A program made the position numbers and the translations under genes. 64,000 nucleotides of DNA, taken from NCBI GenBank assembly GCA_003024785.1, contig PUQB01000019.1, positions 991,002 to 1,055,001 of the forward strand, read 5' to 3'. Below are positions 3,170-64,000 of the stretch, piece by piece; the stretch's first letter is position 1, and the number at the start of each line of letters is the position of its first letter. Below the pieces are notes generated by a model. That model ran no database searches, had not been told where the DNA came from, and was given only the letters and a program-made list of their open reading frames with translations. The DNA is from Selaginella tamariscina. Its lineage: Eukaryota > Streptophyta > Lycopodiopsida > Selaginellales > Selaginellaceae.

Positions 3170-3603
3170 AATTTAATTAGTAATTTAAATTTAAGTAGGG
3201 TAACTCAGAATATTTAAAGAATTTAAATTAGGGCTGAAATTGAATTTAAATAAATTAAAGAACATATTTAAAAATTAAAATATTTAGTAAATCACAAAAA
3301 TTAATGTATTAACCATATATATTTATGTACACATATGCATATGTGTATAAAAAGAATATATAAACATTATTACTTAATAACTAATAAAGCACTATGTGTT
3401 TAGGAAACCAATACTTACTGGTTATAATCTATAATTAAGTAAAATGTTAATTTTTAAGTTAATTATAATTCATAAAAACTTATGAAAAATACTATAATTT
3501 ACATTATACATTAATAATATTTAAATAAAATACGTATCTGCAACTCATAATCGTATTTATGCGTTTTATTTATTTATCTCTTTCATTTCACATTATATTT
3601 TAG
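3170..3603 (+). repeat. Dispersed repeat R1, copy A, left part
   Basis: The sequence from about 3170 to 3600 matches 14976-15420 at high but imperfect identity, including shared blocks such as AAGCACTATGTGTTTAG. Copy A is then interrupted by two insertions (3604-4094 and 4115-6034) and resumes at 6038. Confidence 0.8.
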
Positions 3604-4094
3604 GAAAAATTTCATTTATACTCCATCATATTTACATATATACCCTTATAAGTTTTATATTTACATATATACTCCTGAATTTTTAATTCAAAATTTCATA
3701 AATTTCAAAATTAAACATTAAAAAACATTTTAAAAATAATAAATTAATAAAAATTTATAATTAATATATATTTTATTATAGTTAGGTTCAAAATACAATT
3801 TATTAAATTATTTTTAAATATATTCCATTTTTTACTATGATAATTTTTTTTGACATTTAACACTTAATAAACTTTACTTATTTCATTTGTAATATATTGA
3901 ATTAAAAAATATATATTTTCAGTTAATATTATTATTTTAAAAGTTAAAATATTAAGTTTCCCATGGGTATATACGTAAATTTAAAACTTTTTAAAAGAGT
4001 ATATATGTAAATTTAAAACTTATGTAGGTACATATATAAATATAAAACTTCTAAAGGTATATATGTAATTTCAAGGGTATAAATGTAATTTTTC
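3604..4094. mobile_element. AT-rich inverted-repeat element (MITE-like), about 490 bp
   Basis: The left end (GAAAAATTTCATTTATAC, 3604 onward) and the reverse complement of the right end (GAAAAATTACATTTATAC, ending 4094) match. The similarity continues inward for over 80 bp through TTACATATATAC-type blocks. The segment is absent from the corresponding position of R1 copy B near 15.4 kb. No coding capacity is seen and no clear target-site duplication could be fixed, so the superfamily is unknown. Confidence 0.6.
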
Positions 4095-4622
4095 GTATAT
4101 TTATATGTAACTTAGGGTCGTTTCGCACCACACTTAACTTAACTTAGCATGCATAAGTTAAGTAAAAGTTAAGGGTGCATTTGATTCGCACCAACTCTCC
4201 CTTAAAAAGAAAAGTTAAGGGTTTTGGATTCGTACCAACCCTTAACTTAAATTAAGGGAATTTGTTAAGGGCAATTGATTCGCAGTCATCAACCCTTAAT
4301 CTTTTACTTAAATTAAGGGATTGTGTTAAGGGCAATGGATTCACATAGATACTTAAGTAAAAATATTAAAGGGTCATGAATTCGAATATTGTCCTTAATA
4401 TAATATACTTTATATTTACATTTAAGTTAAAATATTAACTTAATTATTTTTTAATGAACTTAACATATCTACATTCATATAACATTATTATGTCAAGTTA
4501 TAATAAATATTTTTAAATAATTTCAATTTACAATAAAAATTTATTTTCAATTTGTAATAAATTTTTTAACCACTTTAAAATATATTTATAATATTATTAT
4601 TTAAATAATTGTTTTGTTACAG

Positions 4623-4891
4623 GCAATGTTGGGAATTGTATGGGCATTTGCTGTAGAGAGGATGACCGGACAAACAGTCTGTATTCCGTGGGTAACACCG
4701 GTCTGTTTAACTTCTTTTGCAGTTGTTCAACTCTTCTGGTATGCCTCTCTTGTGCCAATGTTCAAGGGGGAGAGCCCGGACAGCCCGTCCGTGCAATGGC
4801 TGAGAGATGGAATGGCAGGACAGCCATGTTGGGTTTCCTTGCACTCGTCGTCACCGAGGCATTTACAAAGTCTCCAGTTTTTGGAATGTAA
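4623..4891 (+). pseudogene. Early light-induced protein (ELIP), captured C-terminal exon
   Basis: After a splice-acceptor-like TTGTTACAG the reading frame gives AMLGIVWAFAVERMTGQTV (first chlorophyll-binding helix), then a second hydrophobic helix ending LVPMFKGESPDSP. After a one-base frame slip comes AERWNGRTAMLGFLALVVTE (third helix with its Glu-x-x-Asn-Gly-Arg type motif), then a stop at 4889-4891. ELIPs bind pigment in thylakoids under high light or drying. The three-helix order and the MFKG linker are typical. The 5' exons (transit peptide, start) are absent and the segment lies wholly between the transposon inverted repeats, so it is a transduplicated fragment and probably not functional. 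Confidence 0.78.
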
Positions 4892-4968
4892 TCACACTTT
4901 CTGTGAGCAAGAGGAATGCACATATTTTGTAGCTTTAGGAAGGACGAACTGAGATGTAATTACTGCTG

Positions 4969-5310
4969 CCGGGCTTTCTGTTGCCCCATGAGCTCGGCCA
5001 ATGCTGGCCGAGCTCAAGCCAGTCCAACCAGGGGCTGCAGAAAGCCCAGCAGCAGTAGCTGCCGGGCTTTCGGCCGGCCCATGAGCTCGACAGCTATGGT
5101 GGGCAGAAAGCCCGGCAGCAGTTGCTGCCGGGCTTTCGGCCGGCCATGCGCGCCGATAGCTATGGTGGGCAGAAAGCCCGGTAGCAGTAGCTGCCGGGCT
5201 TTCAGCCGGCCCACGAGCTCGGCCAATGCCGGTCGAGCTCGTGCCATCCAGCCAGGGGCGGCTGAAAACCCGATAGCAATTGCAGTTGGGCTTTGGGCGC
5301 CCCTTGAGCT
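4969..5310. repeat. GC-rich array of tandem hairpins
   Basis: Several head-to-tail units of about 75-100 bp combine CTGCCGGGCTTTC with its inverted copy GAAAGCCCGGCAG, for example around 5105-5141. They alternate with perfect or near-perfect palindromes on GAGCTCGGCCA / TGGCCGAGCTC (4990-5015, 5215-5240). The array stands out sharply from the AT-rich surroundings and lies downstream of the ELIP stop, inside the Harbinger-like element. Confidence 0.8.
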
Positions 5311-6037
5311 CGAATAAAGCTAGTAGTCTCTATGGCCGCCTCCTGATGCAAATGAATGCAAATGAATGCAAGAAAAGAAGAAGAAAGGAAAGAACACTAC
5401 CTGATCTGCTTGTTCTTCTGCCATTCTCTCCTGATTTCTCCTGAATTCTTCTCTTCCTCTCCCGATGCGCAGAATCTACAGAGATGTATAGAGATGATGC
5501 GCAGAAACCTATAGAAATTAGGCAGAAGGAGAATATACTTAGAATATACTATGAATATATAAGAATAATGAGAAATTCATATTATTATTATTTTTATTTT
5601 AATTATATATGTTAAAATAAAAATATAAAATATAAATATATATTTTACATAAAAAAAATGCACATTACACATGTAAAATTTTATTTTTTATTTTATTTTA
5701 AAGAAGGTGCGAAAAAGGTGGCGAGCCTCGTGAGTCGTTAAGGGTGGCTAAGGACCCCCCACCTCCCTTAAATTTTCTTTGCAAATTTTCACTGTTCCCT
5801 TAAATTAAGTTAAGTTAAGGAAGATTGCGAAAGCACTGCCCTTAGTGGTCAAACCCTTAAAAAATCTTAAGTAAGTGACTTCTTAAGTTAAGGGCAGGTG
5901 TGAATTCAATACCCTTAGTGGTCAAACCCTTAAAAAAGTTAAGTAAGTGGTTACTTAACTTAAGGGCGAGTACGAATCCATTTTCCCTTACTTAAGCCCA
6001 CTTAAGTTAAGTTAAGTGTGGTGCGAAACGACCCTTA

Positions 6038-6203
6038 CTAGTTTACTCCATAACATATACATAAATATGTTAATGTACATTAATTCTTAAACTGATTCAT
6101 GAGGTGACGGAGGTATATTCGGTGGCACGTATGTACATAATACATACGTTTAACGCGAGTAATAAAGTATATTCATTTAGGGTTAGAGTAAACAGGGGAA
6201 TAT
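6038..6203 (+). repeat. Dispersed repeat R1, copy A, right part
   Basis: The sequence resumes R1 directly after the TTA duplication (CTAGTTTA) and ends with TTTAGGGTTAGAGT...ACAGGGGAATAT, matching 15443-15676. Immediately beyond it the sequence diverges from copy B: here an SSADH remnant follows, there an F-box/WD40 gene. Confidence 0.75.
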
Positions 6204-6248
6204 ATAAATATAATTGTCTAGTATATATACCAATGACGGGTTCAATTA

Positions 6249-14730: not shown

Positions 14731-14975
14731 TTATGGATTGAATTATTAAAACACATTAGTCATTTTAATTCATAATAAGTATATAATATCCATTGCATGC
14801 TTAATAATTATTAATTCTTTATATTAATTCATTAAAATATATTCACACACATGCACAAATGTTTAGGGGTGCATTGTATTATATAACAAAATTTGAATCA
14901 CACACAACTGTAAAAATCAACAACCCTAAACCCTAAATGCAACAGAGGAAATATTTGTATAAGATGCTAGTTTAA

Positions 14976-15676
14976 ATTAATTAGTAATTTAAATGTAAAT
15001 TTAAGATAATTAGGGTAAAAGAAAGTAAGATATTTAAATCGGTGATTAAAATTGAATTTAAATAAATTAAGAAATATTTGAAAATTAAAATATTTAGTAA
15101 ATCCACAATATATATATAAACACAAAATTATTCATGTATTAAGTATATATATTTATGTACACATATGTATAAAAGAATATATAAACATTATTATTAATAA
15201 TACTAATAAAGCACTATGTGTTTAGAAAACCACTACTTATTGGTTATAATTGATAATTAACTAAGATGTTAATGTTTAAATTAATATAAATTTTAAAAAA
15301 CCAAAATATTTACATATACATTTATATTTATTACATTATACATTAGTTTAAAGTTTTAAATTAAATGCATATCTGTATATACATACTCAATATCATATTT
15401 ACGCATACATAGGGATATTTCTCATGATAGTTTAATATGTAAATTACTAGTTTATAGAATAATATACACAAAATATATTAATGTAAACATTAATGATTAA
15501 TTATAAAGCATATTCTTAAAATATATAATGTGGGTCAAATAGTAAATCGTGCATCATGGTGGATGGGCATATATGTGTTTTAATTTATGTATATACATAA
15601 TGTATATGTATGTGTGCACGTACGCACATAGTAATCAAGTATATTCGTTTAGGGTTAGAGTCAAACAGGGGAATAT
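14976..15676 (+). repeat. Dispersed repeat R1, copy B (uninterrupted)
   Basis: This copy aligns with copy A parts 3170-3603 and 6038-6203 but lacks the two insertions present there, so it is the empty-site version. It ends about 12 bp upstream of the F-box/WD40 start codon and therefore supplies that gene's proximal upstream DNA. Confidence 0.8.
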
Positions 15677-36217: not shown

Positions 36218-36420
36218 TGAAAGAGCAGATATATATTCAGAAATGTAAATGTATTAGCTACAAAAACCCTGCTTATATACAGGAGACCTCCTGCCACGTG
36301 GCACACATGCGACACGTGTGCACTGACACATGGCGGCCAGATCACCACCCATGTGTCACTACATGTGTGTATATACACATGCGTATATACATTACGTTAC
36401 ATAATATACAGTATCTTACA
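36218..36420 (-). repeat. 3' LTR of the Ty3 element
   Basis: Nearly identical to 40922-41122, with one small indel zone near 36307-36325 and differences near 36235-36255. It contains the same G-box and TATATAAG motifs. Confidence 0.93.
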
Positions 36421-39400
36421 TTATCCCCCCTCTGCGGTTGTGTAGATGGTGATGGATCTGATGGTCCTGGATCCGTGTGAGTTGGGCCATCTAAGGTATG
36501 ACCGAATGTAGTCAACGAGTCTCGAACGACAAACCGTTTCATTCGAACTACGTGAACTATCTCAACCTCATGAGATCCCACCAACTGTACCTGATACACC
36601 TGAGGACCAACCTTTCGGAGTACTCGGTAGGGACCAAGCCACTTATGTAATAAACCAGTTGCAAGCCCAGGTGCAGTTAGCTTGGGAAAACGTACCAGTA
36701 CTAAGTCACCGTCAGCATAGTCTGGTGGAATTTGATGTCGTGCATTGTAAGAAGATTGTTGCCGTATTTGAGCTCGACCAAGATGTTCAGCAGACTCTGC
36801 ACGCAGAAGAGGTAAGACAGCATCCAAATGTCGAGCCCACATTTTGCATCCTCGGCACGTGGCAGATTCGATGATAATCCCAATTCACTAGGCAACTTAG
36901 GATCATATCCATACAATGCCTTGAATGGAGAGATACCAATCGAACTCTGAATGCCTGTTACATAAGCAAATCTCAAGCATCGCAAATACCAATCCCAGTC
37001 AGTGTGATTGAAGTTCACATACTTCGAGATCATACCCTTGAAGGTCCGATTCAATCGCTCCACCAAACCATCAGTTTGTGGATGATATGGAGAGGCAAAT
37101 GAGTGTTTTACCCCTAACCTCTCACACAACACTCGGAATACCTCTGCAATGAAAGCGGGGCCATTATCTGATAACATCCGCTCTGGACAAGAATGCTGCA
37201 AAACCACATTATCGAACAAAAACAAAGCTGTTGACATGGCAGTTGCATCCGGAAGAGCACCAACCTCCACCCAACGAGTTAAATAATCGATACGACAATG
37301 ATGTACTGGTTACCTTGAGAAGAACGTGGAAAAGGTCCCATTAAATCCACTGCAATTAACTCAAAAGGGCGAGAGACATTGATGGATTCTAACACCCCCA
37401 TGGCCCGAGTCGTAGAGGAATTCCGAGTTTGACAAATGGGACAGCTTTGAATATACCTGATCACATCACCACGCATGCTGGCCAATAAAAGGATCTGCGG
37501 AGCTTCTCCAACACTCGTTGGTGACCAAGATGACCTCCAACAATAGGTGAATCATGATATGCTCGAAGAAGGTGTGGAACATATGTAGAGGGCAACACCA
37601 CCATCTGTCTCTGGATTTGTCCCAATAAAATACAATAAACCATCCTGAAGTCGAAACTGAGCATGATATTGTCGAAACCGGGTTCGGAAGAGGATTGCAA
37701 ACGCATCCGTAATTGCCTCGTCCATGGTTCATGTTTTTGAGCATCCTGCCACTGTTCCAAGGATGGTAAGTCGGCATCGAATACCTGAGGGGCTTGTATC
37801 AAACCGAATGCTGCAGCTACTGCATGAGCAGGCAAAGTGGAATCAGAAAGGGGTGCTCGAGAAAGTGCATCCGCATCCACCATTGTTCGCCCAGGCCTGT
37901 GCACCACCTTAAAGTTATATACTTGGAGACGTAATGCCCATCTGGCTACACGACCCACTAAATTCTTCCGTTTTAAAAGGAAGTGACAGCAGCATGATCA
38001 CACTCCAAAAGTGTTTCACTCCCATGTAAGTAGGCATGAAGTCGTTCAAAACCCCAAACAGCAGCAAGGCATTCTTTTTCAGTAGTGGAATAATTCCGCT
38101 CAGCCGGCGTGAGTACTCGACTAATGTAAGCCACCGGGTGTCGAATTGAAGAATCCACAGCATCAGTTTGCATCAATACACCACCAATACCAACATCTGA
38201 GGCATCTACTCGTAAAATGAACGGACGAGTAAAATCTGGGTATTGAAGCAATGGTGGAGTTGTCAGGAACTCTTTTAACTGGTCAAATGCCTGCTGACAC
38301 CTGCGAGTCCACCTGAAAGATACCTGTGGACGAACTAACTCCCGAAGAGGGGCAGTTCGATCAGTGAGATGATCGATGAATCGACCCAAGTACTGCACCG
38401 TGCCCAAGAAACGCTGGACTTCCTGTACTGTACGGGGACGAGGGAACTCTCGAACAGCTCGCAACTTCATTGGATCCACCTGTAAACCCTCTCGAGATAT
38501 ACGGTAACCCAAGTAAGTGGTGTCGGTCGAACCAAACACACACTTTTCAAGTTTCAACTTCAGGCCAACTTCTCGAAATCGATCAAGAACGCGCCGTACA
38601 TCACGAATGTGATCCTCCCAAGAACCAGACCCATGAATGAGCACATCGTCGATAAAATCGGCAGTGATATCAGGCATATCGGAAAGAAGCTCATCCATCA
38701 TGCGTTGAAAGGTGGCAGGAGCTGAAGTCAATCCAAAAGGCATGACCAAAAACTCGTAAAGACCAAATGGTGTCCGGAAGGCCGTTTTTGGAATATCCTC
38801 CTCAGCCATAGGAACCTGCCAATATCCTGATGCCAAATCCAACTTAGTAAACCATCGACTCTGACCCAAACGATCTAATAGATCGGCAGAGTTCGGAAGT
38901 GGATAGACATCTTTGATGGTAACATCGTTAAGAGGTCGGTAATCCACACAAAATCGGAGAGATCCATCAGGCTTGGGAACCAAATGAGGTTCACATGCCC
39001 ATGGACTCCGTGATGGACGACACACCCTTTACCAATCATATCAGTAACAGCTGTTCGCATGGCTGATAACTCCTTTGGTGACCTGCGTCGAACCGGGACT
39101 TTGAAAGGCTTTGCATTGCCGTGGGTATACAGTGTCGAGTCTTCACACGTGCACCTTGGGACAGATCAAATTTGAACAAACTTGCATACTGCTTAAGTTG
39201 TTCGATGCAGTGTGCTCGACACTCAGGTGACGGATCCGGCATTTGAACCTGTTGAGATGAACACCACCCCAAGACCGGAATCAAAGGAGCTGTATGCGTG
39301 ATACAAACAGCAACAAGCTTCTCTGGACGTAAAGGAACAGACTGCAAGACACAGACTCCAAGCGTAATACAGGAGGAGAGAGTGAAAAATCACATACCTT

Positions 39401-40870
39401 TCGACTGCTTTAACCAATCACATCCCAGAATGATGTCAAAGACCTGGGAAGGGACAACCCTAAGAGACCCAGAGGGAAACTTACAGTTGGCACCCAAACC
39501 AGCGTAGTCGAAGTGGTGTACTGTGATACTGCACGAGACTGCCCATTACCATATAAAATGTGCAAGACCTTATCTGCACGTCTTAAGGGTAATGAGCACC
39601 GATGCGCTAGAGAAGTAGTTATGGAAGACATACTGGATCCTGTATCCACAAGCACTGTGACTGAAAGATCATTCACTCGTGCAGAAAATGTGAAAACTGG
39701 ATGATCTGGTGGAACTTGCAAACCTTGATATGCATAGCGGAAAAAAATGGAGGTGAAGTCTCCATCGCACGGGATCCCTCCGTCGCCCGTACGATTACTG
39801 GTTTTCCGCAACAGATCCATGCAAGAGAGGCTTCGTCATCTGGAAGCTCATCATCAGACATAATGGCCGCCACAGGCACACCATCCGGAACATATGGTCG
39901 CCAGCCTGGATGTGGTGGACGCCAATCAGGATACACATCGCATGCCCGCCAAGTATGTCCAGGCGCCCAACAGGCCCAACAATGAACTTGATTGGGTCGA
40001 CCTGCATTGTTCCGATTCCTCCTGTCACGAATCCGTGGATTTTGACCACCACGGGCAGGACTGGAGCAGGTGCAGGACGATTTCGTGGAGGTGGTCCACG
40101 GGGTGGGCCCCGAGGTCGACCACGAAAGGCTTGCCGTGCGGGCACATATGCAGCAGCATCAACCTCCATTGGATCAGCACGCTGAACAAGAGGAGCAGGT
40201 AACCCAAGGGGAACACGGCCCTCACCAGGCACCAACTCAAAACGTTGAGCTAGTGCAAAAGCTTCCTCCAATGTGGTAGGACGAAGAGCCCGAACGAATC
40301 GAACAAGTTCGGGTCGCATAGTTGGCCATAACATACCGAGCTTAATGGGCTCAGGCATGTTAGGATATGCACGCCGAACTAAATCCCCGAACCTAATACT
40401 GAACCGCATAACAGACTCACCAGGATGTTGTCGTATCGCATGCAGTTGTTGGAAAGCATCATCTGAATCCTCAACTTTGCCAAACGTACGTTTGAGGCAT
40501 TCCGTTAACCGATTACTATTGGCTTGAATCTCCGCAGCCAATCCATTATACCACTTGAGCGCAGGGCCTTCCAAACATGTAGGGAATTCTCTGAGAGCAC
40601 GGGCCTCATCCCAACCATGGTAACGAACAATGACTTGGAAATGATCAAACCAGTGGTATACATCATCTCCCGGATCACCACAAAAAGATCGGGGTCGAAC
40701 CCTCGGATTTGTGGCCTGTGAAGAAGATGAAGGAGTACTAGAAGCAGATCCCCCGGCATGAGGCTCAGGGGAAGAGGAGGACGACCCTCAACAAAGCGCT
40801 CCAACAACTTAGTTTGTGCATCAATAGCAGTAGCAATAATGCTAAAAGCCGTCTCCATGTTCATTGTCAT
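36342..40870 (-). CDS. Ty3/gypsy Gag-Pol polyprotein (with frame slips)
   Basis: The first Met is at 40870. Gag shows a retrotransposon capsid core (GPALKWYNGLAAEIQANSN, HPGESVMRFSIRFGDLV). A protease follows with LVDTGSS (about 39700). The RT-RNase H part is one open frame of 350 codons (39025-37973): KPDGSLRFCVDYRPLND, FTKLDLASGYWQVPM, an active site FIDD in place of YxDD, and RNase H with LRVDASDVGIGGVL. Integrase has the H2C2 finger (GGHLGHQ...CPIC), AVDLMGPF, SDNGPAF and HPQTDGLVERLNRT for the D,D,E triad, then a GPYRVL (GPY/F) module; no chromodomain was seen. Frame changes at about 40750, 39800-39100, 37960, 37300 and 36800 break the polyprotein; some may be sequencing errors given the otherwise fresh look. 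Confidence 0.9.
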
Positions 40871-40921
40871 GAAAAAAAAAAGGAAAAGGCGGAAGAAAGG
40901 AATACCCAACTTCTCCACCAA

Positions 40922-41122
40922 TGAAAGAGCAGATATATATTAAAAATGTCAGATATTAGCTACAAAAACCCTGCTTATATACAGGAGACCTCCTGCCACG
41001 TGGCACACATGCACACGTGGCGCTGACACATGGCGGCCAGATCACCACCCATGTGTCACTACGCATGTGTGTATATACACATGCGTATATACATTACGTT
41101 ACATAATATACAGTATCTTACA
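40922..41122 (-). repeat. 5' LTR of the Ty3 element
   Basis: On the minus strand it begins TGTAAGATACTG and ends CTCTTTCA. The interior just after it starts TTGGTGGAGAAG; this is not a standard initiator-Met primer site, so the primer tRNA is unclear. Confidence 0.93.
40974..41020 (-). promoter_or_regulatory. LTR promoter: two G-boxes upstream of TATA
   Basis: Reading the minus strand, CCACGTGT (41020-41013) and CCACGTGG (41003-40996) precede a TATA box TATATAAG (40981-40974) by about 15-30 bp. G-box/ABRE pairs this close to TATA are typical of ABA- or stress-inducible plant promoters. Confidence 0.6.
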
Positions 41123-60007: not shown

Positions 60008-63000
60008 TGTTAAAACACGAGCCAAGCCCAGTATCAACTAACCTATGTTTTTGTATTTCTGGATACTATTTATACAGTTTTCTTTATAACTATATATGGT
60101 AGTTCTCCATAAGTATATACGGCCTAAGCTATATATGGTCTAAACATATATAACTGTTCTTCCAGCTTGGACTCCACGCTGGATATCTCAACACTCCCAC
60201 TCAGCATGAGAGTTCAAGATGGTCATTCAAGACCGGTGTCGTTGGAACTATCCCTGCTCAAGGCCTTGGTCATAATATCTGCAACCATCTCGATACTAGA
60301 CACATGCTTGAGTTTGATATTCCGCTTGAACCTCTTGTGGATGAAGTGGTACTTCACATCGACATGCTTGACTTTGTCATGATGTCTGGGTTCTCTGAAG
60401 TAGCTATGGCACTAGTGCTGTCACAGTATATGTGATCGGCCTGGAAATGAAATTCCCATGTCCTTCAGCAACTTCATCAACCACGTTGCTTCCTTGGCTG
60501 CCTCTGTTGCTGAAATGTACTCGGCCTCCATCGAGGAGAGTGCAATCACTCGCTGCAGTCTGCTCATCCAACTGATAAGCCCATCATCCAAAGAAACACA
60601 TATCCTGAAGTGGACTTCCTAGTCTCCTGTTTCCTGCCCAATCTGAATCTGTGAAACCCACTAGATCCATTACCATGTGATCTCCTGTAGAGCTCCCACT
60701 AGCTGAATATGTGAGACAAAACCCGACTGTGCCTCGCAAGTATCGTAAGATACGTTTGACTGCTGTCCAATGAGCCTCTCTGGATTCTCTACAAACCTGG
60801 AAACCACTCCGACTGCAAAAGCCAAGTCTGGTCGAGTGGAAATGGCTAGATATAACAAACAACCAACTATCTGCCTATAAGGAACCTGTGCCATGACTCG
60901 TCTCTCCTCCTCAGACGTCGCTGTTGATCTTTTGAAAGTGTGTGTGTACGTCCATGGGGGTGCTGACAGGGTTGCTGTCGGCCATGTATACTTTCTGAAG
61001 TATCTCTTGCACATAGTGTGCTTGAGATAGCTGAATCACCCCTGCAGCTCTATCCCGGAACACCTGAATGCCCAAACAATAGCATAGGTCACCGGCTGCA
61101 GAGATCTCAAACTGAGATCGAAACTGGTGTTCAAAGAATTGAACAAGCCGAAACTGGCTTGCGGCCATGATGTTGTCATCAACGTATAATGCCAGGTATG
61201 CAAAGTCCACTCCCTGTCGAAAGACATATACGTTTCCATCTGCAGTGGACTTCTGGAAACCGATGGAGGTGAGAAACCTGTCTACATGATCATACCAGGC
61301 TCGTGGTGACTGCTTCAAGCCATACAGGGCCTTTCGAAGACGACAAACGTTGTGTTCTTGTCCTTGTACCACGAATCCCTCAGGCTGTGTAGTGTAGACT
61401 TCCTCCTTCAGCTCTCCATACAGGAAAGCAGTCTTTACATCAAGCTGGTGAACCAAGCTAGTTGCTATCCGAAGAATGAGACGAATGGAAGCCATCTTCA
61501 CCACTGGTGAATACGTCTCATAGAAGTCAACTCCAGCGATTTGTGAGAATCCTCGTGCAAAACGAGCCTTGTATCGGAGTACTTTCGCCATGTGCATCCA
61601 GCTTCTTCTTGAATAGCCACTTGGTACTTACAGTGCGGCAACCGTGGGGAAGAGTAACAAGCTCCCAAACCTGGTTCTTGAGGAGAGAAGCATATTCCTC
61701 CTCCATGGCAGCCCTCCATTCTGCGCCTCTGTGATTGCATGCCTCATGCACTGTCCGGGGCTCCCGAGGATACCTGGAGGTGAAGAAGGAGGTTGAAGAC
61801 TCATCAGCTTCTCTTGCCTTTCGTGACTTGTAGCTAATTCTCCCACTTCTCGTGATTGTGTTGATGGGTCGGATGGATTAGGTACCTGCGGAGGTGCTTG
61901 CTGAAGTGGAGGAATCTCCTCCTCACTCAGATCTAATCTGCTCAATTGCAATCTTGGATCTTCCCCAATCCCCCTGGATCAGGCCCATGTGCTGGTGGAT
62001 CCTGTGGTTGCTCTTCCTCAAGAATATAGCCGTCGGATTAACTTGAACTGTAAACCTATCTTGTAAAGCATATCCTCATTAAACTTAACGTCTCGGCTCA
62101 CAACAATTTTCTGGTGAGTGGGATCGTAAAGCCTATATGCCTTGCTCTCATGGCAATATCCCACCATGATATACATGTTACTCTTCTGCTCCAACTTACG
62201 ACGGAGTTCTTTGGAATGTGCATATGCCAGGCACCCAAACACACAAGGTGTTTCAAACTGACTCGCTTCCCAGTCCACCGGGTGAATGGAACTTCTCCAC
62301 CAATGCTGCTTGCAGGAAGTCGATTCCGGATGTAGCTGGCTGTGCTTAAGGCCTCTGCCCAATAATTGAGCGGTGTTCCTGCATGCATAAGCATGCATCT
62401 TGTCGTCTCCACTAGAGTCCGATTCATTCTCTCGCCACTCCATTTTGCTGAGCTGAGTATGGGGCTGTAAACTGCTGCTGAATCCCAGATTCTTCACACA
62501 ACTTCTTGAGCACACTTGCTTGATACTCCCCACCTCTATCACTCCTAAGTACGGATTTTCAAATTCTGCCACACGTTTTCTGCAGCAATCTTATATAGCC
62601 GAAACATTTCTGCTACTTCTGATTTGTTAATCAAGAATTTCACCACTGTGTAACGAGTATAATCATCTATAAACGTCACAAAATACCTCCTTCTTTCAAT
62701 GACTGAACATGCATTGGTCCACACACGTCTGTGTGCACTAATTCTAGAGGTTGAGTGGTCTTACAGCAGATGCCCTTACTGGGAACGGCTGCCTATGTTG
62801 TCTTCCAAAACAGCATGCCTCACAGAACTCAAGGTTGTCTCTAAGTACCTGAAAGTCTGAAAGCTGGTCCTGGTCCGAGCTACAGCTCGAATCGCTGCCT
62901 CGTTTGCATGTCCCAATCGTTGATGCCATCGTTGAAGAGTTGTGGAGAAGATCTTCTTCTTGGGTATCACCAATGTGGCGTCTAGCCTATAGTTCCCAGC

Positions 63001-64000
63001 ATGTCTTGGCCACGTGCTACTATGGTTCCTTGCTTGTCAGTGTAAGTGATCTTGTCCTTATCGATTTGACCTTTCCAACCGGCATCTGCTATCTTCCCAA
63101 CCGAGATAAGAGTTTCGCTGAGTGTGGGGACATAGTGAACTGTCGAAGTCGACAATCTCACCGTTCTGGAGTTGAATCTCTACTGTCCCGACTCCTGCAA
63201 TGCTCAATGGTCGATGATCTCCCGTGTAGACTCCTTCTCCCACTGGGATTGCCTGATATGTCTTAAAAGCGGCAAATACTGGAGTACAGTGAACATTGGC
63301 ACAACTGTCCAACCAGAGGATATTTTCTTCCTCGAAAGGACTGAGGTTAGTGGTTACCATGAGGGCCATCGCTGATTGCCCTTGTTCTTCAGTTCGCTTG
63401 CTCGTGGTTTTCCTGCTGCCTTGTCCGGACAGCTCTTGGCAAAATGCCCCATCTTCTTGCAGTAGTTGCATAGTCCAAGCTTTGACGGTGGAATGTCCTG
63501 CCTATTTGTGCTACTGCTACCTTTATAGTGTGAAGCACTGCTCCCACTCCTCACTGACTGTGGATTGAAGTTGGTTTTCTTTTCGAATTGGCTGAAGTGA
63601 AGAGGACTTGAGAATGTCCCACCATACCGCTGGTTATGTTTGCTTGAGGATTTGGATCATGGTTGATGACTGCAGCTTGAATCTCCTGATAAGACATCCC
63701 TGATGTATTCTCCATGTCGTCTTGAGAGTCACGTGGTCTGGCCTAGTAAGGCCCTGAGAAGCACCGTGGTTTTGTCTATATCTGAAATGGTCTGTCCAGA
63801 GCAGTGAGCTGAGCAAGAATGGACTTCATTCTTCCGAGGAACACAGATGCTAGTTCGTGGGACCAAACTCGAGATTAAAAAATTTTCCTTTCAGCGATAC
63901 CACGGATCTCTCCTTCCGTGCCTGATTGCCAAAAATTGCCTTCAACTCTGTCCAATTCTCGGAAGCTGACTTGCTTAGATTCAGGTGATGGTGGTGATGC
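60008..64000 (-). mobile_element. Ty1/copia LTR retrotransposon, partial (runs off the right edge)
   Basis: The domain order on the minus strand is Gag, protease, integrase, RT, RNase H (copia order). A candidate 3' LTR of about 157 bp (60008-60164; TGTTAAAACACG on the plus strand, ends TTCCA) abuts the end of RNase H. It cannot be confirmed because the 5' LTR is outside the window, and no good polypurine tract was seen. Confidence 0.85.
60170..64000 (-). CDS. Ty1/copia Gag-Pol polyprotein, 5' partial, frame-broken
   Basis: From the right: a UBN2-type Gag ([13 protein letters not shown]) and a CCHC knuckle [14 protein letters not shown] (about 63470). The protease is [10 protein letters not shown], with Cys where the DSGA signature has Gly. 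Integrase has [11 protein letters not shown] and [17 protein letters not shown], open at 61597-60911, has [31 protein letters not shown] and the YVDD active site. RNase H has FTDSDWAGN, and the tail is [13 protein letters not shown] then VADIMTKAL. Several frame changes (near 62570, 62430, 61740, 61600, 60900, 60600) break the frame. The integrase and RT cores are well conserved, so it is not very old. Confidence 0.9.

Follow-up and report, generated by a model that had tools for sequence, protein, structure and literature searches.

Structure of the element and its target site

The window, i.e., the whole 64,000-nucleotide stretch of Selaginella tamariscina DNA analysed here (36.4% G+C), contains a transposable element of 1,920 bp at positions 4115-6034. 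The element is bounded by 32-bp terminal inverted repeats (4115-4146, plus strand; 6003-6034, minus strand) that are identical at 32 of 32 positions, and it is flanked on both sides by a TTA target-site duplication (4112-4114 and 6035-6037), which confirms the 1,920-bp insertion proposed in the preliminary description of this DNA. Together with its duplications, the element occupies C493:995113-997038 of the assembly. When up to three mismatches are allowed, the only matches to the 32-mer end within the window are the element's own two ends, and 100 shuffles return none. The 250-300 bp that follow each end are rich in CCCTTAA/TTAAGGG motifs: the element has 16 such motifs, every one of them within 300 bp of its left end or 320 bp of its right end, and five are found in the remainder of the window.

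From left to right, a subterminal region rich in these motifs (4147-4350; nine of the 16 are in the first 300 bp) is followed by AT-rich element DNA (4351-4609), which is shared with a 4.7-kb relative of the element, L062, up to position 556 of the latter and ends at the left breakpoint, 4609/4610. The next 353 bp (4610-4962, plus strand) are a captured segment of an early light-induced protein (ELIP) gene, oriented opposite to the genes of the transposon family. Beyond this segment lie a GC-rich array of palindromic units belonging to the element (4963-5325), element DNA on that side from which the minus-strand genes of the family start (5326-5737, minus strand), and a right subterminal region with seven motifs (5738-6002). 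It is only a guess that a stretch combining an ATG, at about 5422, with a GT is a first exon. The palindromic array (taken as 4955-5325) is predicted to fold far better than shuffled sequences (z -12.3). It is present in other family members, often in a longer form, and there it is located upstream of the beginning of the Myb-like frame or overlaps with it. The array could be a break-prone site; its candidacy as captured cargo was rejected because siblings without the cargo have it too.

A stretch without the element lies at 15.2-15.7 kb of the same window. The joined junction (4098-4114 plus 6038-6104) aligns with 15400-15519, around the TTA of the unoccupied site at 15444-15446, with a score of 67, while the best of 1,014 other window segments scores 38 and none of 2,000 single-base shuffles reaches 67. 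Both flanks align there in order (3170-3540 with 14974-15375 at 75% identity; 6158-6203 with 15630-15676 at 94%). The earlier claim of an empty site at 15.44 kb thus holds for the junction, but the site is an unoccupied, diverged paralogue with flanks about 75% identical, not a near-identical copy, and a second insertion of about 0.49 kb is absent there as well. This AT-rich, MITE-like insertion (approximately 3604-4097) has imperfect inverted ends of about 87 bp, and its right end nearly abuts the left TTA of the Harbinger element. The 46-47 bp at 94% identity, amid flanks that are about 75% alike, are possibly a conserved regulatory piece or an exon. An allelic empty site was sought with the right flank, which matched itself, the 15.6-kb repeat and two paralogues of 72-80% identity, at C493:946.5-947.4 kb (about 50 kb from the element, on its own contig) and at C98:40.5-41.3 kb; these paralogues align from window position 6236 onward only, so that the junction falls outside their alignment.

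Elsewhere in the window, a minus-strand open frame at 74-664 matches Pfam Pkinase_fungal (PF17667, E 6.3e-8), here in a plant genome. Retrotransposon reverse-transcriptase frames lie on the minus strand at 36342-40939 and 60670-63501, with an RVT_1 match at 37973-39028 (E 1.6e-35); the others were recognised by eye.

The transposon family and its full-length relative

The whole assembly (300,702,823 bases in 1,391 contigs) was searched for relatives of the element, and siblings proved numerous. With the element as query, at least 317 matches were obtained (40 of 513 candidates scored). The 23-bp family end, at up to two mismatches, occurs 161 + 150 = 311 times genome-wide, against 0 + 0 for the reversed control, and four copies of the cargo were found. 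The 4.7-kb relative L062 (contig C1281) has the same ends, with TAA on both sides. It carries on the minus strand a transposase, recognised as DDE_Tnp_4 (PF13359) in two open stretches (E 2.2e-13 and 4.8e-8), and a second, Myb/SANT-like gene (Myb_DNA-bind_4, PF13837, E 1.2e-14). Such a gene pair characterises PIF/Harbinger elements. Since a relative with the same ends carries both, the window element can be assigned on sequence grounds to the PIF/Harbinger superfamily, and the Harbinger-like label that it was first given stands. This coding evidence comes from one full-length relative, and further pairs of family ends sit 4.6-5.2 kb apart.

Matching 3-bp duplications flank all 14 elements in which both ends were read, a count that omits one-ended loci and loci with unpairable ends such as L015. 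The duplication is TTA or TAA in ten of the 14, and TGA, TCA, TTT or ATA in the others; siblings devoid of the duplication, which the preliminary description had named as evidence against its own reading, are thus not the case. MULE or Pack-MULE, CACTA and Tc1/mariner elements were considered and rejected on the end sequence, which begins with GGGTCG, and on the duplication length of 3 bp. The target duplication of MULEs is 8-10 bp long, and CACTA ends begin with CACTA or CACTG.

Relative to L062, the window element consists of L062 positions 62-556, of 353 bp foreign to L062, and of L062 from about 3555/3715 to 4796. In other words, 353 bp take the place of approximately 3 kb of L062-type sequence that includes the transposase and Myb-like genes. 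The two genes of L062 lie in this missing part, and a scan of 12 of the window copy's 47 listed frames gave no match to a transposase. This agrees with the original view that the cargo is not transposase; it is expected of a non-autonomous member and leaves the membership unaffected. Pfam searches with the other open frames of the element gave a sub-threshold CbiX match only, an NCBIfam search gave nothing informative, and the exact 23-bp end pattern has no match in viral contigs.

Among the matches listed, query positions 499-853 are covered by the four cargo copies only, and siblings align over 1-498 and again from 850 or 854. Nine short elements without the cargo were compared with L062, four of them from 30 loci of the element-query search and five from the listed family ends. 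Eight of the nine have no L062-foreign stretch of 30 bp or more and are internal deletions with varied breakpoints, three of which have 16-23 unmatched bases at the join. L066 (C1178) was considered as a second host capture and rejected: its L062-foreign stretch of 589 bp recurs in at least eight other places, six of these recurrences being no more than 6 kb from one of the 100 family ends listed, and is probably family DNA. A 2.2-kb family member, L012 (C631), is nested in another member of the family, with TTT on both sides.

The ELIP cargo and the resident ELIP genes

The cargo comprises the final 13 bp of an ELIP intron with the splice acceptor TTACAG (4610-4622), the last exon through the stop codon, covering the end of helix I and helices II and III (4623-4891), and 71 bp of 3' flanking sequence up to the right breakpoint with its microhomology (4892-4962). 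Resident ELIP genes encode GPETINGRL, followed by an intron with GTAAGT that ends in TTACAG, and then by AMLGIVWAF; the cargo begins 13 bp before that exon. Read across the intron, ETINGRL and AMLG form the LHC-type NGR-AMLG motif. When the cargo is aligned with resident ELIP genes, as had been proposed, it differs from L035 (C604), the closest full ELIP match, by 2 substitutions in 351 positions. The partial match L063 (C1260) shows 1 in 175, and L036 and L037 show 10 and 11 in 352, with indels in addition. L035 for the ELIP part and L062 for the element are best taken as relatives of the exact source and progenitor. At L063 (C1260:9000-11600), the start of an ELIP first exon is joined straight to the end of the last exon; match coordinates indicate a truncated ELIP match of the same kind at C1036:6382-6569.

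Compared with the closest ELIP gene, the last exon in the window has lost 10 bp, gained 1 bp and lost a further 12-13 bp. The window cargo is frameshifted, with the end of helix II in one frame and helix III in another, and between the 10-bp loss and the 1-bp gain even the first frame is non-native. The helix III frame matches Pfam Chloroa_b-bind (E 1.4e-4) and LHC-family chains in the PDB (E down to 3.3e-8). The other frame gave nothing relevant in Pfam and no LHC-family chain in the PDB, which is partly explained by the non-native frame of its middle section. The name ELIP also leans, as supporting evidence only, on a match to an Arabidopsis ELIP1-like sequence. Read in this way, the cargo is a fragment of an ELIP gene, comprising the last exon and the splice acceptor before it. 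The preliminary description spoke of a captured ELIP gene whose three-helix end, with splice acceptor, forms the cargo. Capture, last exon and acceptor all stand, but the piece accounts for 353 of the 1,920 bp, the remainder being element DNA, and it is not one open frame. Nor is it a complete gene: it has no transit peptide and no first half of helix I, and its helices are not all in frame.

The 96-residue ELIP exon has 142 matching places genome-wide, which are match rows and not genes. Of these rows, 35 span residues 1-96 without a stop, two of them being cargo copies. The matches are mostly clustered, on C604 and its likely haplotigs, on C882 and C113, and on a few other contigs. An intact 96-residue last exon is present in 16 of 26 ELIP loci (L035-L060), some of which are probably two haplotypes of one gene; L035, the closest resident gene, is out of frame through a lost T. 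According to a published review, S. tamariscina has 300.73 Mb of PacBio assembly with 37.4% G+C, an estimated genome of 150 Mb and 74 ELIP genes, and ELIP expansion in resurrection plants takes the form of large tandem arrays (PMC8558194). As the assembly is twice as large as the estimated genome, it seems to contain both haplotypes, and the order of ELIP matches on C1036 and C809, which parallels that on C604, agrees with this.

Copies of the cargo and their divergence

The same cargo is found in four places, i.e., in the window and on C482, C1378 and C599, and the three other copies show 0/351, 0/347 and 0/341 substitutions in the cargo relative to the window copy. The flanks of the four copies have no mutual similarity over 1.2 kb a side, and their target-site duplications are TTA, TAA, TAA and ATA. 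As the flanks are unrelated and the 3-bp duplications separate, the capture was followed by transposition, and the shared junctions, together with two differences from L035 that are common to all four copies, fit one capture. The C1378 and C599 copies have an uninterrupted frame, of 87 and 89 aa, as far as the native ELIP stop, and the C482 copy is frameshifted like that of the window. The C599 copy sits between genes and not in an intron, as judged from flank frames recognised by eye; of the three cargo copies with listed flank frames, C599 alone had recognisable ones. Between copies, the two arms show 9-14 gaps against 7-12 substitutions, while the cargo has gaps and no substitutions. Since both the copies and the resident genes show many gaps in relation to their substitutions, indels and single frameshifts may partly be assembly errors.

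The arms differ from those of the window copy by 1.0-2.5% in the same three comparisons in which the cargo differs by none. At the rate of the arms, the chance of zero change in the cargo would be approximately 0.7%, 1.3% and 2.3% for the three comparisons taken singly, which are not independent. Such a pattern is not predicted by a single capture followed by plain transposition; gene conversion, polishing of repeats, or a higher apparent change in the AT-rich arms could account for it. In trees of the two arms, one branch had a length of 0.77, and the left-arm set was contaminated by several loci that have a right end only and a spurious "left" match.

Origin of the captured segment

Altogether, these findings make it very probable (about 0.9) that the window element is a non-autonomous PIF/Harbinger element of the Pack-PIF kind, arising from a full-length relative of 4.7 kb. 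It has the features of Pack-TYPE transposons, i.e., a host coding fragment between the ends, a parental gene family elsewhere in the genome, and movement after capture. The capture itself was probably achieved by template switching. According to this model, a break in an element, either after excision or at the palindromic array, would be followed by repair synthesis that switches from the element to the ELIP gene and back, with a microhomology of 4-7 bp guiding one side. The resulting chimera would retain the ends and subterminal repeats and would then have been moved in trans, presumably by the transposase of full-length relatives, with the ELIP piece as a putative passenger.

Both breakpoints lie in the interior of the element. 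At the right junction, L035 reads ...TTATTGCTTATT and L062 reads ...GCTATTGCTGCCGGG, with TATTGCT in common. In 20,000 draws of random junctions, at least 7 bp are shared in 0.07% and at least 4 bp in 1.9%. All four cargo copies have TACTGCT at this point, against TATTGCT in L035, L036, L037, L039 and L063, so that a 7-bp run presupposes a subsequent substitution at one base, and the run seen without a break is 4 bp long. Microhomology at the left junction is about 1 bp. A survey of element arms covered 31 of the 142 ELIP places, with about 1.5 kb of flank (1.0-1.4 kb in L063, and less at L043, one side of which is cut short by the end of its contig). Arms were found at four of these 31 loci, which are the four cargo copies, and at none of the other 27. 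The internal breakpoints, the microhomology and the armless ELIP loci fit gap-repair template switching better than a fusion of neighbouring insertions. In such a fusion, two family members would have flanked an ELIP last exon, their outer ends moving jointly and their inner parts being deleted, which would likewise yield a left arm, host DNA and a right arm. This is the published model for Pack-CACTA and other Pack-TYPE elements, including Pack-PIF (PMC8903248). With arms checked at 31 of 142 places, a neighbouring insertion could have been missed, or it could since have been lost. However, a fusion requires two deletions that both end near one 353-bp stretch, the non-cargo ELIP loci bear no arm in the flanks surveyed, and the internal deletions with varied breakpoints in eight of the nine non-cargo short elements look as if they came from gap repair. 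We therefore consider fusion of neighbours rather unlikely in this case.

It is also conceivable that the element is a mobile terminal-exon cassette, spliceable onto genes near new insertions, which also shifts between element copies by gene conversion. Were this improbable idea true, a desiccation-tolerant plant would harbour a mobile unit in which the coding last exon for a thylakoid photoprotection protein moves jointly with its splice acceptor, stop and 3' flank. It is very improbable that the captured exon has been retained because it has a function, such as that of a mobile terminal exon which genes close to an insertion acquire by splicing. The start of the piece 13 bp before the exon, its acceptor, stop and 3' flank, the two copies without an interruption before the native ELIP stop, and the unchanged cargo between changed arms would all suit such a role, but the window and C482 copies are frameshifted, the cargo is devoid of a transit peptide and of the first half of helix I, and the C599 copy seems to be intergenic. 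Finally, the possibility raised at the outset that misassembly placed element ends around a resident ELIP gene can be dismissed, for although the assembly is indel-rich and seemingly contains both haplotypes, the two junctions are identical at four places with different flanks and their own duplications, ELIP genes with exons and introns of their own reside elsewhere, without element arms in the flanks examined, and an unoccupied paralogous site exists within the window.

Relation to known systems and significance

An origin by template switching can be compared with several known systems. Ds elements arise by abortive gap repair of Ac. The window element is like them in being an internal deletion of an autonomous element, which in Ds sometimes carries filler DNA. 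In contrast to Ds, it belongs to PIF/Harbinger and not to hAT, and its filler is a nearly complete exon. The Pack-TIRs of animals have been attributed to fork stalling with template switching or to gap filling, and the features used to recognise the latter include internal breakpoints and microhomology (PMC8277862), both of which are seen here. The same study gives a median of 224 bp for the captured piece, against 353 bp here, and describes multicopy Pack-TIRs with distinct duplications and distant donors, as in the present case; most of its cases are single-copy and near their donor (PMC8277862), and ours is a plant PIF/Harbinger element.

The preliminary description held that gene capture is much less well known for PIF/Harbinger elements than for MULEs and Helitrons, which has to be qualified: Pack-PIF elements of maize and rice have already been described among the Pack-TYPE transposons (Gisby and Catoni 2022, PMC8903248), in the one article that a search of open-licence papers for such elements returned. 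They share with the window element PIF/Harbinger ends, a 3-bp duplication, a host gene fragment, the lack of a transposase and multiple copies. The present case differs in that a full-length relative, close resident genes and both breakpoints are found in one lycophyte genome, and in that internal breakpoints with microhomology suggest template switching and not neighbour fusion. No account of ELIP capture by a transposon was found in the titles and abstract openings of the open-licence literature searched. A description of Pack-PIF elements appeared in 2022, and the novelty here lies in the case itself, in which the host is a lycophyte, the captured piece is an ELIP exon, and every ingredient can be seen.

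For cut-and-paste transposons, it is not settled whether host exons are gained through neighbour fusion or through template switching in repair. A single genome here supplies a full-length relative, both junctions and the resident ELIP family, which allows a direct comparison of the two models for a PIF/Harbinger element. The suggestion that ELIP copies spread in this way could matter finds no support, since the search yielded four captured fragments as against large ELIP clusters, and nothing indicates that the element spreads working genes. In S. tamariscina, the large ELIP family is mostly clustered, and capture by a transposon is seen to add fragments only.
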